Origin: Acidobacteriaceae bacterium KBS 83
GTDB taxonomy: Bacteria > Acidobacteriota > Terriglobia > Terriglobales > Acidobacteriaceae
Direction of reading: 5' to 3'
Length of the DNA stretch: 64,000 nt
Assembly: GCA_000381585.1 (NCBI GenBank)
Contig: KB906739.1
Location: forward strand, 186,001 to 250,000
Shown here: one piece after another, positions 2,158 through 44,439 of the stretch
Numbering within the stretch: the stretch's first letter is position 1
Layout of the letters: each line of letters begins with the position of its first letter
Made by a program: the position numbers and the translations under genes
Notes under the pieces: model-generated
Told to the model about the DNA's origin: nothing
What the model saw: only the letters and a program-made list of their open reading frames with translations
Database searches by the model: none

Positions 2158-2191
2158 GCATCCGTACGAATGTCCTAGGTCGTACGGATGC
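2158..2191. terminator. Perfect 12-bp hairpin between convergent genes
   Basis: The arms gcatccgtacga (2158-2169) and tcgtacggatgc (2180-2191) are perfectly complementary around a 10-nt loop. It starts 8 bases after the lipoprotein stop and abuts the broken 3' end of the minus-strand Gfo/Idh gene. The symmetric stem without a long T-run could act as a bidirectional terminator. Confidence 0.6.
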
Positions 2192-2200
2192 TCCGCTTTG

Positions 2201-3549
2201 CATCGCCTCGACCGGCGCCTTGCGGCTGCGCACCGACGCAAAGAAGTTCGCTTCGTGATCGACCGTATCGTTATAGTGCTCCGGCACCGTGTAGCTCTCG
2301 GCTGTCTCTGCGACGACCGAAGCGAGCGGCGCCGCTGGCGGATGTTCCCGTTGCCACTGTTCGAGATACTCCTCGCGAAGTTTCTTAGGCCAGCCACCAA
2401 TCGAATAGCTCTCTGCCTGCGGCGAATCATCCTGCGGCGTGTAAGTCAGCGTCGCGTCCTGGATCACGAGCGTGCCTTTGGTGCCATAAAAGGCGAGGTG
2501 CTCGCCGCTGTCATTATTCAGGTTGCAATGGATACTCGAACGAAAGTCCGGATAATCGTAGAGCGTGTAAATCATGTCCGGAAAGTCCCGCCCATCTTTG
2601 AAGCGGAAGAGCCCGCCAGTCGAATACGCCCGGGACGGATACGTATTCACGCCCGTGATGACCTGCATGCCGGAGAGCAGGTGGACGAACAGATCGCCGG
2701 GATGGACACTTCGGCAACCACACTGCAATTGGCTGCCACATGGCAAATGCTTCGTACTTCAAACGTGTCTCTGTGAACTGGGACGGCCAGGCCCTCGCCG
2801 TAGTCGTCAAAACAGCGCCAGCGAAAGAAGCGGACCGGATCGAAGGGCCGGGTGGGCGCGTCTTCCAGAAACGTCTTCCAATCGATGTTCGCCTCGCTCG
2901 CACCCGGAGGAATGGGATAGACCCACGCACCGCTGGCGGAGTTGCGGCCCCACGATGCGTCCACCAGCGTAAGTTGGCCGAGTTTGCCGGCAGAGACAAT
3001 CTCGCGTGCCTTCAAATAAAGAATCGAGCTGACGCGCTGGCTGCCGATCTGCAGGATTCGGTTTCCCTTCTCCGCCGCCGCGATCATGGCGAAGCCATCC
3101 TCCACGGTATGCGACATCGGCTTCTCGCAATAGACGTCCTTGCCCGCTGCACGGGCGTCGGCCACGATACGGCGATGCTGGTGGTCCGGCACCGCGATCA
3201 GCACTGCATCCACATCCTTGCGGTCCAGCAGCTCCTGATAGTGTCCCGTGGCAGGCACACTACGGCCCAATGCCTCCTGGCCGGCCTGATGCCGCGCCTC
3301 ATAGAGATCGCAGATGGCCACGCACTCTGCTCCGGGAATGTGCTGCGATGCTTCCAGGAGATCGCAACCGCGTGTGCCGGTGCCAATGGCAATAAAGCGC
3401 ACACGGTCGCTCGGGGCGACTGGCGCGCTCGTCTGTGCCCTCAGCCACGCCGGCTCCAGCACCGTGGCGCGCGCGGCAACGCCAGCCGCCGCAGCCTTTG
3501 CCGTAAGTCCAAGGAAGTTACGCCGTGTTACACGCCGGCCAACACCCAT
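2201..3549 (-). pseudogene. Gfo/Idh/MocA family oxidoreductase, rearranged
   Basis: A Tat-exported NAD(P)-dependent sugar oxidoreductase family member. The start at 3549 follows a good ribosome site (gggaggaa) and the protein begins with a twin-arginine leader (TRRNFLG). A Rossmann motif (GTGTRG) and the family motif CEKPMSHT follow. Block A (3549-2785, about 255 codons) runs to DYGEGLA. Block B (2698-2207, 164 codons) continues in another frame from GDLFVHLLSGM to SVRSRKAPVE. Between them lie 86 foreign bases that shift the frame. The normal C-terminus after RKAPVE is missing; its 28 codons are found inverted in that 86-base insert (2784-2701). A, B and the moved piece add up to about 450 residues, the usual family length. 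As read, the product would be truncated and nonfunctional. Confidence 0.85.
2701..2784 (+). other. Inverted, displaced C-terminal segment of the Gfo/Idh gene
   Basis: Read on the plus strand, the opposite of the host gene, these 28 codons give a peptide containing FGNHTAIGCHMANASYF and ending VSVNWD. From family knowledge this is the C-terminal signature of Tat-exported Gfo/Idh/MocA oxidoreductases, which normally follows the RKPVE-type segment. Here it sits inside its own gene in reverse orientation. Flanking bases give a short imperfect match (gggatgg at the left, gggacgg at the right). No second copy was noticed in the window. Confidence 0.85.
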
Positions 3550-38872: not shown

Positions 38873-41800
38873 CTATCGCAGCGGCAATGCAAGAATCCCC
38901 GCCAGCGGAATTCGTATCCAGGCAGGCCGGTTATTCAATTCATACATCAGCTCGTAGAGTGCCTTGTCGAGCACATAAATCTCCAGTAGCTGTTCGAATG
39001 CCTCTGCCGGTGTCGGCACCAGCACCACACCTGCGGCTCTCATGGTAAGCCTGTACGCGTGCAGAAAGGCGCTGCACACAGATTGCTCCCACAGCCGTGC
39101 CCACGGTTCCAGCCGATCGGCGTCACCCGGCCGGCGAGTCAATACACGCATCAGCTCTGAATAGGCCGCATAGCTGAACGAGCGCAGCATTCCGGCCACA
39201 TCCTTCATGGGCGACTGCTTCGCGCGCCGCTCCATGAGCGACCGTGCCGGCTCGCCTTCGAAGTCCAGAATTACAAAATCGCCGCGCGACCGCAGCACCT
39301 GCCCCAGATGGTAATCCCCATGCACCCGCGTGCGCAGGCCCGAAGTGGAGAGATCGCCCACACGCCCCAACCGTTCGGCAACGCGCCGACGCCGGCTCAG
39401 CACCAGGCCGCTCATCTCCTCAACCTCCGCGGGTAGCCGCGACAGGTTCTGTCGCAGCGCATCGAAGGCCGCATTCGCGTGCTCGGAGAGGGCCGCGCGC
39501 AGCACCGACAGTTCTGCCTCCGTCATTGGCTCCGGCGCGAACGCCTCGTCCTTTGTGGGCTGCGCCAGCGCGAGGTGCATTTCTGCCGTGCGCCGTCCCA
39601 GAAGTGCAGCGGCATCCAGGTATGTCCCCACGTGTTCCCGGGTCCAGTCGCTCTCCGGATGTTCGCTTAGCTCCGTGAGCGATACATGCGATCGCGGGAA
39701 ATGCTCCTCTGGCATCGGAATGACCGACACCTGTTCGAAATAGCGCTGCAGTTCCTCTAGGGTCCATTCCCAGCCATCTCCTTCGTTTGGCACCAGGCCC
39801 TGCAACATCGCGAACGTCGACTTCGCGGTCTCATCCGCCGCGCGCCCTACCGGTTGGTACTCCACCTCCCCACCAAAGGGCGCAATCGCGCGAAATCCGC
39901 TGTGCTCGGTCAGATAGCGTCCAATCTCCGTGTCAGGATTGGGTCCTGGCTGTTGACGGCGAAACAGCTTCAGGATCAGACGGTTTCCAAACATGATCGA
40001 GGTGTTGCTCTGCTCGGCCGAGCCGCGCCGCGGTTCGAGCATCTCTTCGCCGCGTAACTCCGCAAAGTTCGCGCTCGGCAGCCCGCGGACCGTTCCATGC
40101 TGCATTGCGAGTTCGCCCGACCTGCCGACCAATGCCAGAAGTTCGCGCCCGGCCTCGTCGTCAAACATCGCATCGTGCAGATAGCCGCTTCCGTCCGGAG
40201 TCGTGACCGCGGCCAGCACAGCCGCGCCGTGACTCCTCGAGATCGCCTCTCCCGCCGCTCCGATGCTGACCGCCAGCGGAACAAAATACGTGTCGCGGTC
40301 GCCGCCGCCATAGGTGACCTCGATCAGCGCCAGCGCGTGGTCGCCCATCCGTCCCCAGTCGCTGATCGTCGTCGTCGTGATCTGCCGCGACTTGCCGCCG
40401 AACCAGCGCTGTTTGAGCAGAAATGCCGGCAGCCACTCCTGCTCCAGGCGATCCCGCCCTGCTCCGGCGAGCACCGTCTTCCAGTCCGCCGCATGCTGGA
40501 GCCGAAGCGCAGCATCCCTGGGAACCTCAGGCTCCTCCGGCTCCAGTTCACCCTGCAACTCCAGCCACAGGAAACCGTACTGGCTCAGCGTGATCGCATA
40601 CGGCGTCTTCTCGATCTTCGGAAACTCGACATAACCCAGCATCTCCACCGGCCGAAGTCCCGCGTACTCGGAGAGGTCCAGTTGTGCCGGTTGCGGAAAA
40701 CGCGACAAATTCGCCACGCACAGCACGCGCTCATCGCCTTCCTCCCGCACATACGCGAGCACCTTGCGGTTCGACGGATGCAAGAACTTGAGCGAGCCGC
40801 GGCCAAAAACGCGGAAGAGCTTGCGCAGCGCAATCATGTTGCGCATCCAGCTCAACAGGCTCGAAGGATCGCTCTGCTGTGCCTCGACATTGATCGCTTC
40901 GTAGCCCCACACGGGATCCATCACCACCGGAGAAAACAGCTTGGCCGGAACCGCCCGGCTGAATCCCGCATTACGATCTCCGGTCCACTGCATCGGCGTG
41001 CGCACTCCGTTGCGGTCACCCAGGTAGATGTTGTCTCCCATCCCGATCTCATCGCCGTAGTAGAGAATCGGCGTGCCCGGGAAAGAGAAGAGCAGGCTGT
41101 TCAGCAGCTCAATCCGCCGCCGGTTGTTGTCCACAAGAGGTGCCAGCCGCCGCCGGATTCCGATATTGATACGCATCCGGGGATCGGCACTGTAGGCGAA
41201 ATACATGTAGTCGCGCTCTTCATCGCTCACCATCTCCAGCGTCAGCTCGTCGTGATTGCGCAGAAAAATTCCCCACTGGCAGTTATCCGGAATGCCCGGC
41301 GTCTGTGCCATGATTTCCGTGATTGGCAGCGCATCCTCCTGCCGCAGCGCCATGTACATCCGCGGCATGAGCGGAAAATGGAACGCCATGTGGCACTCGT
41401 CGCCGTCACCGAAGTAAGGCCGCACATCCGCCGGCCACTGGTTGGCTTCGGCCAGAATCACGCGGCTCTCGTAATCCTTGTCGATGGCGGCGCGGATGTT
41501 CTTCATCACCGTATGCGTCTCGGGAAGGTTCTCGCAGTTGGTTCCGTCGCGCTCCACCAAGTACGGAATCGCGTCGATGCGCAGGCCGTCCACGCCCATG
41601 TCCAGCCAATACCGCATGATGTTCAGCACCTCTTCCATCACCAGCGGATTGTCGTAGTTCAGATCCGGCTGATGAGAGAAGAAGCGATGCCAGTAGTACT
41701 GCTCGGCCACCGGGTCCCAGGTCCAATTGGATTTTTCGGTATCGGTGAAGATGATTCGCGCGTCCTTGTAGAGCTGGTCGTCGTCGGTCCACACGTAGTA

Positions 41801-42196
41801 GGCGCGTTCCGGCGATCCCTTGGGCGCGTGACGCGCGCGCTCGAACCACGGATGCTGGTCCGAGGTATGGTTCACCACCAACTCCACCATCACCTGTATG
41901 CCGCGCTCATGTGCAGCCGCCAGGAACGCTTTGAAGTCATCCAGCGTCCCATAGCTCGGATTGACGTTCATGTAGTCCGAGATGTCGTAGCCGTCATCCC
42001 GCAGCGGCGACGGGAAAAATGGCAACAGCCACAGGCACGTAACCCCGAGGTCCTGGACATAATCCAGCTTCTGCATCAGTCCCGCAAAGTCCCCGATGCC
42101 GTCGTTGTTGCTGTCCATGAACGCCCGGACGTGCAGTTCGTAGATGACCGCATCCTTGAACCACAACGGATCTGCCATGCTGCCCGCTTGCTTCAA
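38873..42196 (-). CDS. Trehalose synthase/maltokinase fusion
   Basis: A 1107-residue two-enzyme protein. The N-terminal GH13 trehalose synthase (residues about 10-560) interconverts trehalose and maltose; the nucleophile is in DGLRIDAIPYL, the acid in ILAEANQW and the stabiliser Asp in FLRNHDEL. The C-terminal maltokinase (from about 590) has LLKQRWFGGKSRQI, the kinase catalytic VHGDYHLGQVL and ILDFEGEP. Together they make maltose-1-phosphate for GlgE, encoded 9 bp upstream on the same transcript. The start is TTG at 42196 with aggag at good spacing; ATG at 42178 is an alternative. Confidence 0.92.
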   Translation of the reverse strand: MKQAGSMADPLWFKDAVIYELHVRAFMDSNNDGIGDFAGLMQKLDYVQDLGVTCLWLLPFFPSPLRDDGYDISDYMNVNPSYGTLDDFKAFLAAAHERGIQVMVELVVNHTSDQHPWFERARHAPKGSPERAYYVWTDDDQLYKDARIIFTDTEKSNWTWDPVAEQYYWHRFFSHQPDLNYDNPLVMEEVLNIMRYWLDMGVDGLRIDAIPYLVERDGTNCENLPETHTVMKNIRAAIDKDYESRVILAEANQWPADVRPYFGDGDECHMAFHFPLMPRMYMALRQEDALPITEIMAQTPGIPDNCQWGIFLRNHDELTLEMVSDEERDYMYFAYSADPRMRINIGIRRRLAPLVDNNRRRIELLNSLLFSFPGTPILYYGDEIGMGDNIYLGDRNGVRTPMQWTGDRNAGFSRAVPAKLFSPVVMDPVWGYEAINVEAQQSDPSSLLSWMRNMIALRKLFRVFGRGSLKFLHPSNRKVLAYVREEGDERVLCVANLSRFPQPAQLDLSEYAGLRPVEMLGYVEFPKIEKTPYAITLSQYGFLWLELQGELEPEEPEVPRDAALRLQHAADWKTVLAGAGRDRLEQEWLPAFLLKQRWFGGKSRQITTTTISDWGRMGDHALALIEVTYGGGDRDTYFVPLAVSIGAAGEAISRSHGAAVLAAVTTPDGSGYLHDAMFDDEAGRELLALVGRSGELAMQHGTVRGLPSANFAELRGEEMLEPRRGSAEQSNTSIMFGNRLILKLFRRQQPGPNPDTEIGRYLTEHSGFRAIAPFGGEVEYQPVGRAADETAKSTFAMLQGLVPNEGDGWEWTLEELQRYFEQVSVIPMPEEHFPRSHVSLTELSEHPESDWTREHVGTYLDAAALLGRRTAEMHLALAQPTKDEAFAPEPMTEAELSVLRAALSEHANAAFDALRQNLSRLPAEVEEMSGLVLSRRRRVAERLGRVGDLSTSGLRTRVHGDYHLGQVLRSRGDFVILDFEGEPARSLMERRAKQSPMKDVAGMLRSFSYAAYSELMRVLTRRPGDADRLEPWARLWEQSVCSAFLHAYRLTMRAAGVVLVPTPAEAFEQLLEIYVLDKALYELMYELNNRPAWIRIPLAGILALPLR

Positions 42197-42205
42197 ATCG
42201 TTCTC

Positions 42206-44278
42206 CTACTTGCGAATTTCAAACACATGCGCGGGCACCTCATAGGGTCGCAACTCCACGTAATTCCGCGACCCCTGCCAGCGATATCCGCGATTGGCCA
42301 GCAAATCGAAGACACCGAACGTTGCCCCATCCTTCAGCCCCAGCGACGCCAGATCGAGCGTTACATATCCCGCCTGCGTGTTCACCGGGTCGAGGCTGAC
42401 GACCGTTAACACGACATCTGAACCATCCGCCGTCGACTTGCTGTAGGCCATCACCTGCGGGTTGTCCGTTGGATGAAAGACCAGGTTCTCATTGCGCTGC
42501 AACGCCCGGTTCGCTCGCCGCGCCTCATTCAGCAGCGTGATCAGCGGACGTAGCGAATTCGGCGCCTCGCGGTTCCAGCGCTTGATCTCGTACTTCTCAC
42601 TGTTCAGATACTCCTCGCTGCCCTCCTTGAAGCGGATATTCTCTCCCAGCTCAAACGCCGGCCCATACATGCCGTAGTTCGAGGAGAGTGTCGCCGCCAG
42701 CACCAATCGGCTCTTGAAGGCATTCGGTCCGCTGGTCTGCAATCCAAAGGGCAGAATATCCGGCGTGTTCGGCCAGAAGTTCGGCCTCATGTACTCGGAG
42801 ACCTCCGTCTTTGTCAGCTGCGTCATGTACTCGGTCAGCTCGGCTTTGGTGTTGCGCCAGGTGAAGTAGGTGTAGCTCTGCGTATAGCCGAGCTTGGCCA
42901 GCCGTTCCATCACCCGCGGCCGCGTGAACGCCTCTGCCAGGAAGATCGTGTCCGGATACACCGCCTGCACCTCGGCGATCACCCACTCCCAGAAAGGAAA
43001 TGCCTTGGTATGCGGATTGTCGACGCGGAAGATGCGCACATTTTTCTCCGCCCAGAACATGAAAACTTCCTTCAGCGCATCCCACAGCCCTTGCCAGTCG
43101 CTCGATTCGAAGTCCAGAGGATAGATGTCCTGGTATTTCTTCGGCGGATTCTCCGCATATTGAATGGAGCCATCCGCACGCTTCTTGAACCACTCCGGAT
43201 GCTCCGTCACCCAGGGATGATCCGGTGCGCACTGAAAGGCGATGTCCATCGCCAGCTCCATCTTGCGCTCGCGAAGCTGCTCGATCAGATATTCAAGGTC
43301 CGCAAACGTCCCGAGTTCCGCCAGGATGGCGAGATGTCCGCCCTCCTTCGCGCCAATTGCCCACGGGCTGCCCACGTCGCCCGGCTTCGCCTCCGTCGTA
43401 TTGTTCTTCCCCTTGCGAAAACTCCGGCCAATTGGATGAATTGGCGGCAGATAGAGCACATCGAAGCCCATCTCCTCAACATAATCGAGCTGAGCCGCAA
43501 CATCGCGCAGCGTGCCATGCTGTCCCGGCTTACCCCACGAGCGGGGAAACAGCTCGTACCAGCTTGAAAAGCGTGCCCGCTCCCGGTCCACCCACACGCG
43601 CAGCGTGCGCTCATAGCGCGTCTGCATCTCCGTCTCCGGATTCCGGTTCACAATTGCGAGCAGCGTCCCATCGAACGCCGCGGCAGTCGAACCGCCGCGC
43701 ACCTTCTCCGCAAACGCCTTCAACTGCGCTGCTTCCTCCTTCGTCGCGCGCTTTGCCGCCGCTTCAATCAACAGGGCGCCCGTCTTCAACGGAAGATCGA
43801 GATCCTGCCCCGCATCCTCTCGTTTCTTCAGTTCCGAGCGCCAGGTCTGAAAATGATCCACCTCGCCAACCACGGTGTACTCATGGAAGCCCATCTGGTC
43901 GACAACGAAACTTGCTGTCCAGTGGTCATTGCCCAACGCCGTCATCTCCTCGGTGCGCCACTCCGTCTCGTCCGCCCGGCGGTACAGCAGATGCGCTCGC
44001 ACCATATCGTGCCCATCGCCAAAGACGTCCGCCTCCACGCGCACGCTATCGCCTACAACGCGCTTCGCGGCAAACCGTCCGCCGTCGATCTGTGGCTTTA
44101 TTCCCTCCACCACCACGCGGCTCCGTCCATTCGCCGGTTTCGTCAATGGTGTTTCCGATGATTTCGTTTTCGCCGCGTTGGCCGGTCGCTTCGCAGGTGC
44201 CTTCGCTCCTGCGGTGGATTTCTTCGTTGCGCTCTTTTTCTCTTTCGCGGGGACCTCAATCGGCATCTCGTTCGTCAT
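42206..44278 (-). CDS. glgE: Maltose-1-phosphate maltosyltransferase (GlgE)
   Basis: A 690-residue GH13 enzyme that extends alpha-1,4-glucan with maltose-1-phosphate. An N-terminal Lys/Ala-rich tail of about 45 residues (KKSATKKSTAGAKAPAKRP) is followed by the N-terminal domain, then the catalytic barrel. Seen here: YLPPIHPIGRSFRKGKNN, the nucleophile Asp in RVFRVDNPHTKAF-like FRVDNPHTK, and the acid Glu in IFLAEAFTRP. The start is uncertain within a few codons (44287, 44278 or 44266). No glgB or glgC is in the window. The partner treS/mak follows after 9 bp. Confidence 0.92.
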   Translation of the reverse strand: MTNEMPIEVPAKEKKSATKKSTAGAKAPAKRPANAAKTKSSETPLTKPANGRSRVVVEGIKPQIDGGRFAAKRVVGDSVRVEADVFGDGHDMVRAHLLYRRADETEWRTEEMTALGNDHWTASFVVDQMGFHEYTVVGEVDHFQTWRSELKKREDAGQDLDLPLKTGALLIEAAAKRATKEEAAQLKAFAEKVRGGSTAAAFDGTLLAIVNRNPETEMQTRYERTLRVWVDRERARFSSWYELFPRSWGKPGQHGTLRDVAAQLDYVEEMGFDVLYLPPIHPIGRSFRKGKNNTTEAKPGDVGSPWAIGAKEGGHLAILAELGTFADLEYLIEQLRERKMELAMDIAFQCAPDHPWVTEHPEWFKKRADGSIQYAENPPKKYQDIYPLDFESSDWQGLWDALKEVFMFWAEKNVRIFRVDNPHTKAFPFWEWVIAEVQAVYPDTIFLAEAFTRPRVMERLAKLGYTQSYTYFTWRNTKAELTEYMTQLTKTEVSEYMRPNFWPNTPDILPFGLQTSGPNAFKSRLVLAATLSSNYGMYGPAFELGENIRFKEGSEEYLNSEKYEIKRWNREAPNSLRPLITLLNEARRANRALQRNENLVFHPTDNPQVMAYSKSTADGSDVVLTVVSLDPVNTQAGYVTLDLASLGLKDGATFGVFDLLANRGYRWQGSRNYVELRPYEVPAHVFEIRK

Positions 44279-44439
44279 CCTCTCCATCTCATGTGTCTGC
44301 CGCCGAAGCAGCCATTCTCTCTCATGCAGAGCGGTCTCCACTCCGCCACTCCTATCAGGATGCACATCAGCGCCCTTGTGTTCGCTGACGCGTTTCCGAA
44401 GTGTTCGCTACAGCATTTCGCTGTCGCATCCCCGCGATC

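Follow-up and report, generated by a model that had tools for sequence, protein, structure and literature searches.

An apparent inverted transposition inside a Gfo/Idh/MocA oxidoreductase gene of an Acidobacteriaceae bacterium

We describe a gene of Acidobacteriaceae bacterium KBS 83 in which the coding segment for the conserved C-terminus lies inverted in the middle of the gene. The locus is a broken member of the Gfo/Idh/MocA oxidoreductase genes. Judged from the comparison of sequences, the change is an intragenic inverted transposition, by which an ancestral order A-B-C-D became the present order A-(C inverted)-B-D: segment C is lost at its donor site, it lies inverted elsewhere in the gene, and relatives keep the original order. 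The original prediction had offered three explanations, namely a segment transposition with inversion, a switchable arrangement and an assembly misjoin. Colinear relatives, a segment C that occurs in a single copy, and a loss at the donor site together with a gain at the target support the first of these. The locus is probably a young pseudogene and not a regulated element.

The pieces of the gene and their order in relatives

The window analyzed here is a stretch of 64,000 nucleotides, bases 186001-250000 of contig C7, from a 6.25 Mb genome that is 99.33% complete in 21 contigs. We re-read and translated the three pieces of the gene (Table 1), and the coordinates and frames originally given for A, B and C proved correct. 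Block A matches the Pfam family PF01408 (GFO_IDH_MocA, NAD-binding domain) with 76.4 bits against a cut-off of 24; it begins with what we take to be a twin-arginine-like leader, and its identity to relatives reaches 68% among the best 80 of 550 matches. Searched alone, blocks B and C matched no Pfam or NCBIfam family. The NCBIfam family NF058561 (glycoside 3-dehydrogenase) is a distant match at 102.7 bits, far under its cut-off of 750, and the nearest solved chains of this Gfo/Idh/MocA gene are 8tdf and 8tdh. The one continuous frame with C-terminal domain and tail that an intact gene requires is absent here.

Table 1. Coordinates of the pieces, junctions and repeats of the broken gene (positions in the window)
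Feature	Position	Strand	Description	Basis
Block A	3549-2785	minus	255 N-terminal residues, stop-free	reading frame
Block B	2698-2207	minus	next 164 residues of the same gene, stop-free, now out of frame with A	reading frame and alignment
Segment C	2701-2784	plus	conserved C-terminal 28 codons, inverted, stop-free, between A and B	translation DGHFGNHTAIGCHMANASYFKRVSVNWD
Donor scar	2205-2208	minus	B joined straight to tail D at the former place of C	comparison with relatives
Tail D	2175-2204	minus	DAKRSIRTT, final 9 codons, and TAG stop at 2177-2175	frame inferred from relatives
CGG, left end of insert	2698-2700	plus		
CGG, right end of insert	2784-2786	plus		
Present coding frame	3549-2647	minus	A and a further 45 meaningless residues up to the stop, 300 residues in all	
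Inverted repeat	2158-2191		perfect 12-bp inverted repeat, 10-base loop, 15 bases from the donor scar	

To learn how A, B and C are arranged in relatives, we searched 61 genomes, genome contigs (of which the best 80 of 550 matches were kept) and 398 genomes of the family. The order was then read in 114 distinct family loci, after removal of 7 duplicate loci and with the own-genome paralogue L002 included. These counts omit L001 and L003, which are the finding itself, the chance matches L113-L120 from the own genome, and the loci of Ku and of recombinases. Block B was found in 111 of the 114 loci and was missing from the other 3. The gap between A and B was 0 codons in 109 of the 111, minus one third of a codon in one and minus 38 codons in another. 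C was detectable (E < 0.01) in 73 of these 111 loci and too diverged in the other 38; where detectable, it directly adjoined B in 72 of 73, with one residue between them in the remaining locus. No family locus among the 114 carried C on the opposite strand. A and B are thus colinear with the family, as had been proposed: A abuts B in relatives, and the pieces align to intact homologues.

Segment C is short, and its assignment was examined separately. On its own, it finds its counterpart at the corresponding position in the 23 compared of the 28 closest relatives, with E values of 1.3e-9 to 2e-6, so the match is not due to chance. At the A/B boundary, the DNA matches of relatives stop at about position 814-817 of the query and resume at 901-903, and the relatives' own DNA is continuous there; in three genomes (G005, G268 and G025) the two matching DNA pieces overlap by 3 bases at this boundary. 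The suggestion that C is the missing C-terminus holds insofar as it is a conserved C-terminal segment that adjoins B in relatives. It needs one correction, in that a short tail, D, follows C. In the 28 closest relatives whose match to C runs to its final residue, WD is followed by a further 7 to 11 residues and then the stop, as in the tails ADAKKIRGLQS, ANAKTIRG and GAARKITRG. In the present gene, B joins tail D at 2206/2207, where D is read in the third frame. Since a fitting tail still follows the donor scar, C was evidently removed from between B and D.

The two sites nearly balance each other in length. The target at A/B gained 86 bases, 84 of them from C plus 2, and the donor lost about 84-86 bases, the exact count hanging on one codon that is unreadable from the window. 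Such agreement between gain and loss is to be expected if one fragment was moved, not copied. The triplet CGG flanks the insert on both sides and occurs once where A and B are contiguous; the target thus seems to have been duplicated by 2-3 bases. The overlaps at the junctions are short, and the resolution of the donor junction is limited by the DNA identity of the closest relatives, which is 74%. We also considered a motif, G-N-C-G-N-N-G-A-T, in which the three inferred breakpoints resemble each other and which is absent inside A, B and C, and rejected it, because 134 of 3000 random in-frame triples from A and B were equally similar.

The arrangement is confined to this genome in the sets searched. 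Of 397 genomes of the order, the one that contains the window is the only one with an exact match to the junction sequence. Matches at 2-3 mismatches in 22 other genomes were dismissed as chance, since a reversed control pattern matched in about 23. Segment C is present once in the genome, and a second near-identical copy of the whole gene was not found there. The own genome holds 17 other Gfo/Idh matches, and the 6 of these that were listed are open frames of 416-533 residues. The genus's one other genome (85% complete) has no close counterpart of the gene; by this gene, the nearest named relatives among the best 80 of 550 matches are acidobacterial metagenome-assembled genomes. None of the relatives' loci, many of which are short-flanked, has the neighboring lipoprotein, P-loop or LpxD genes beside the homologue.

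Two observations made along the way concern other genes. In one homologue (L029, G020:C11:170687-171429), block A was matched in two overlapping pieces in different frames, which suggests that this homologue carries a frameshift, real or a sequencing error. Elsewhere in the window, at 38873-44365, an alpha-amylase/maltokinase fusion lies beside a GlgE-type maltosyltransferase by family matches; we take this to be a gene pair of the trehalose-to-alpha-glucan pathway.

Present product and age of the event

The frame that opens at 3549 loses B, C and D and runs into a stop at 2647. From the reading frames, we predict a truncated protein that most likely has no function. The age of the damage was gauged by a decay test on the columns that are invariant in the 28 closest relatives. 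The broken gene keeps 66 of 67 such columns in A, 29 of 30 in B and 7 of 8 in C. The departures in A and B are within the range of intact relatives, several of which depart more often; the departure count of C (1 of 8) is the highest among the 29 sequences, tied with two others, on so few columns that it would fit recent relaxation and ordinary divergence alike. The share of differences at third codon positions was 0.55 in A, 0.52 in B and 0.49 in C, a measure that is not informative on decay. Because the pieces show no excess decay, we read the event as recent, in agreement with the original prediction, and all three pieces are stop-free. Apart from the rearrangement, the gene looks to have been functional until recently.

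Origin of the rearrangement

In the account that we consider probable, a gene that was once intact and under constraint would have been broken by one recent intragenic inverted transposition. Segment C, as a fragment of about 84-86 bp, would have been excised near the 3' end, the donor ends would have been rejoined after the excision, and the fragment would have been flipped and sealed into a third break at the A/B boundary. Breaking, flipping and rejoining would have taken place as a single event, through double-strand breaks and Ku/LigD non-homologous end joining, and would have left a young pseudogene. For Bacillus subtilis, Ku and LigD are described as the two proteins at the core of bacterial end joining (PMC13201618). 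The present genome encodes two Ku genes (G000:C3:456304-457589 and C9:82434-82970) and one LigD N-domain, in an open frame of 891 residues beside a Ku gene. As both proteins are encoded, end joining of an excised and flipped fragment would be the likeliest cause, with the genes indicating capacity only.

The hairpin of 12-bp arms beside the donor site may perhaps have helped, which we offer as conjecture. This element (2158-2191) folds with a z of -3.74, and 1 of 200 shuffles folds as well. It lies between convergent genes, has no T-run and is absent from the list produced by the terminator scan. Its loop appears to hold the former stop codon of the broken gene.

The strongest competitor, which we nonetheless consider unlikely, is an artefact, with the order produced by an assembly error or by a chimera that formed during library preparation or whole-genome amplification. 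Phi29 amplification chimeras are described as joining nearby pieces, with a distance peak at 250-300 nt and an overlap peak at 6 nt (PMC4595205). The present distance between C and its insertion point, about 490-580 bases, can be set beside these values, and the absence of the junction from the other genomes of the order that were searched is also what an artefact would produce. However, an artefact would have to replace the true sequence consistently at two places, A/B and B/D. An assembly misjoin becomes less likely because the errors at these two places of the gene would have to match each other and conserve nearly every base. Three features of the data speak against a poor assembly in general: its completeness with few contigs (99.33% in 21), the open frames of the 6 listed own-genome Gfo/Idh copies (of 17 others), and the neighboring ORFs, which mostly look intact among those scanned.

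Somewhat less probable still is a two-step origin in which the A/B site received C as an inverted copy through template switching during replication, and the original was lost later in a deletion of its own. Short inverted pieces are described as arising by short-range template switching (PMC7954356 and PMC8604942). Such a switch leaves the original in place, however, and C occurs here only once; the deletion would then have to coincide by chance, to within a few bases at either end, with the piece that was copied.

We regard as improbable a pair of successive inversions, first of B and C together and then of B alone, although these would also yield A-C(inverted)-B-D. This equivalence has been pointed out for an inverted transposition of a large block in E. 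coli (PMC5372343), and inversions conserve bases. The E. coli case has end repeats, whereas the junctions here have inverted matches of only 4-6 nt, and breakage at C/D would be needed on two occasions.

A reversible, recombinase-driven switch in its off state, similar to an intragenic inverton or a shufflon, is very improbable in our judgment. Two features would suit it: the segment is exactly 28 stop-free codons, and the genome has eight serine recombinase domains. These lie on contigs C1, C8 and C10, and none is on C7, which carries the gene. Inversion by a site-specific system requires inverted repeats as well as a recombinase, and no inverted repeats of at least 10 nt were found at the junctions. 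The 4-6 nt inverted matches that the junctions share are at chance level (554 of 1880 random regional pairs reach 6 nt or more), and we therefore rejected inverted repeats as the driver of the event. The assembly shows a single state of the arrangement, and no relative among the loci and genomes searched has it. Moreover, an order that is both moved and inverted needs three sites, not two, which argues against a switch, and because C is also displaced, an inversion in place could not restore the gene. For these reasons we set aside the proposal of a switchable arrangement. An elaborated form is just as hard to credit: a gene assembled reversibly by dedicated or co-opted recombination that would excise, flip and move a C-terminal cassette, as a three-site on/off control of an exported oxidoreductase.

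Among 38 neighboring ORFs (50 were picked and part of them scanned), Pfam detected no recombinase or transposase family. Elsewhere in the genome, four of the serine recombinase domains cluster on C1 (G000:C1:467641-515236) and three on C8 (C8:264767-269769), and these clusters are possibly mobile islands. An insertion sequence or transposon was rejected, because the inserted 84 bp are coding sequence of the gene itself and carry no terminal repeats, and a duplication of 2-3 bases is insufficient to indicate one.

Significance and comparison with known rearrangements

Most pseudogenes arise from point mutations, deletions or insertion sequences. The reading that best fits the present locus is that of a known rearrangement class, here unusually small and clean: a rare and readable mutation and not a new system. 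A flipped piece re-inserted a few hundred bases away, with almost no change in the number of bases, would be an unusually readable record of multi-break repair in a bacterium with genes for Ku and LigD. If confirmed, it would give a natural example that bears on how often bacterial end joining makes complex micro-rearrangements; gene callers would list such changes as a short protein plus fragments. A literature search of titles and abstract openings, in which several sets of terms were narrow, returned no bacterial example of an intragenic inverted transposition of this size.

Several known systems resemble parts of this case. The first comparison is with the Gfo/Idh/MocA oxidoreductases themselves: A carries the NAD-binding domain, and intact members can be aligned along the full run of A, B and C; unlike these, the present gene has a broken frame, with B shifted out of it and C both inverted and moved. 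In the inverted transposition of large blocks described for E. coli (PMC5372343), a segment is likewise removed from its original position and inserted at another one with its orientation reversed; here, the piece is only about 85 bp, lies inside one gene and has no end repeats. Short template-switch mutations (PMC7954356 and PMC8604942) similarly invert a short nearby piece, but the donor copy is left in place there and is gone here. Finally, intragenic invertons (Chanin et al. 2024, cited in PMC11868660) also invert a coding piece within its own gene, whereas in the present gene the piece is displaced as well, has no flanking inverted repeats and is seen in one state.
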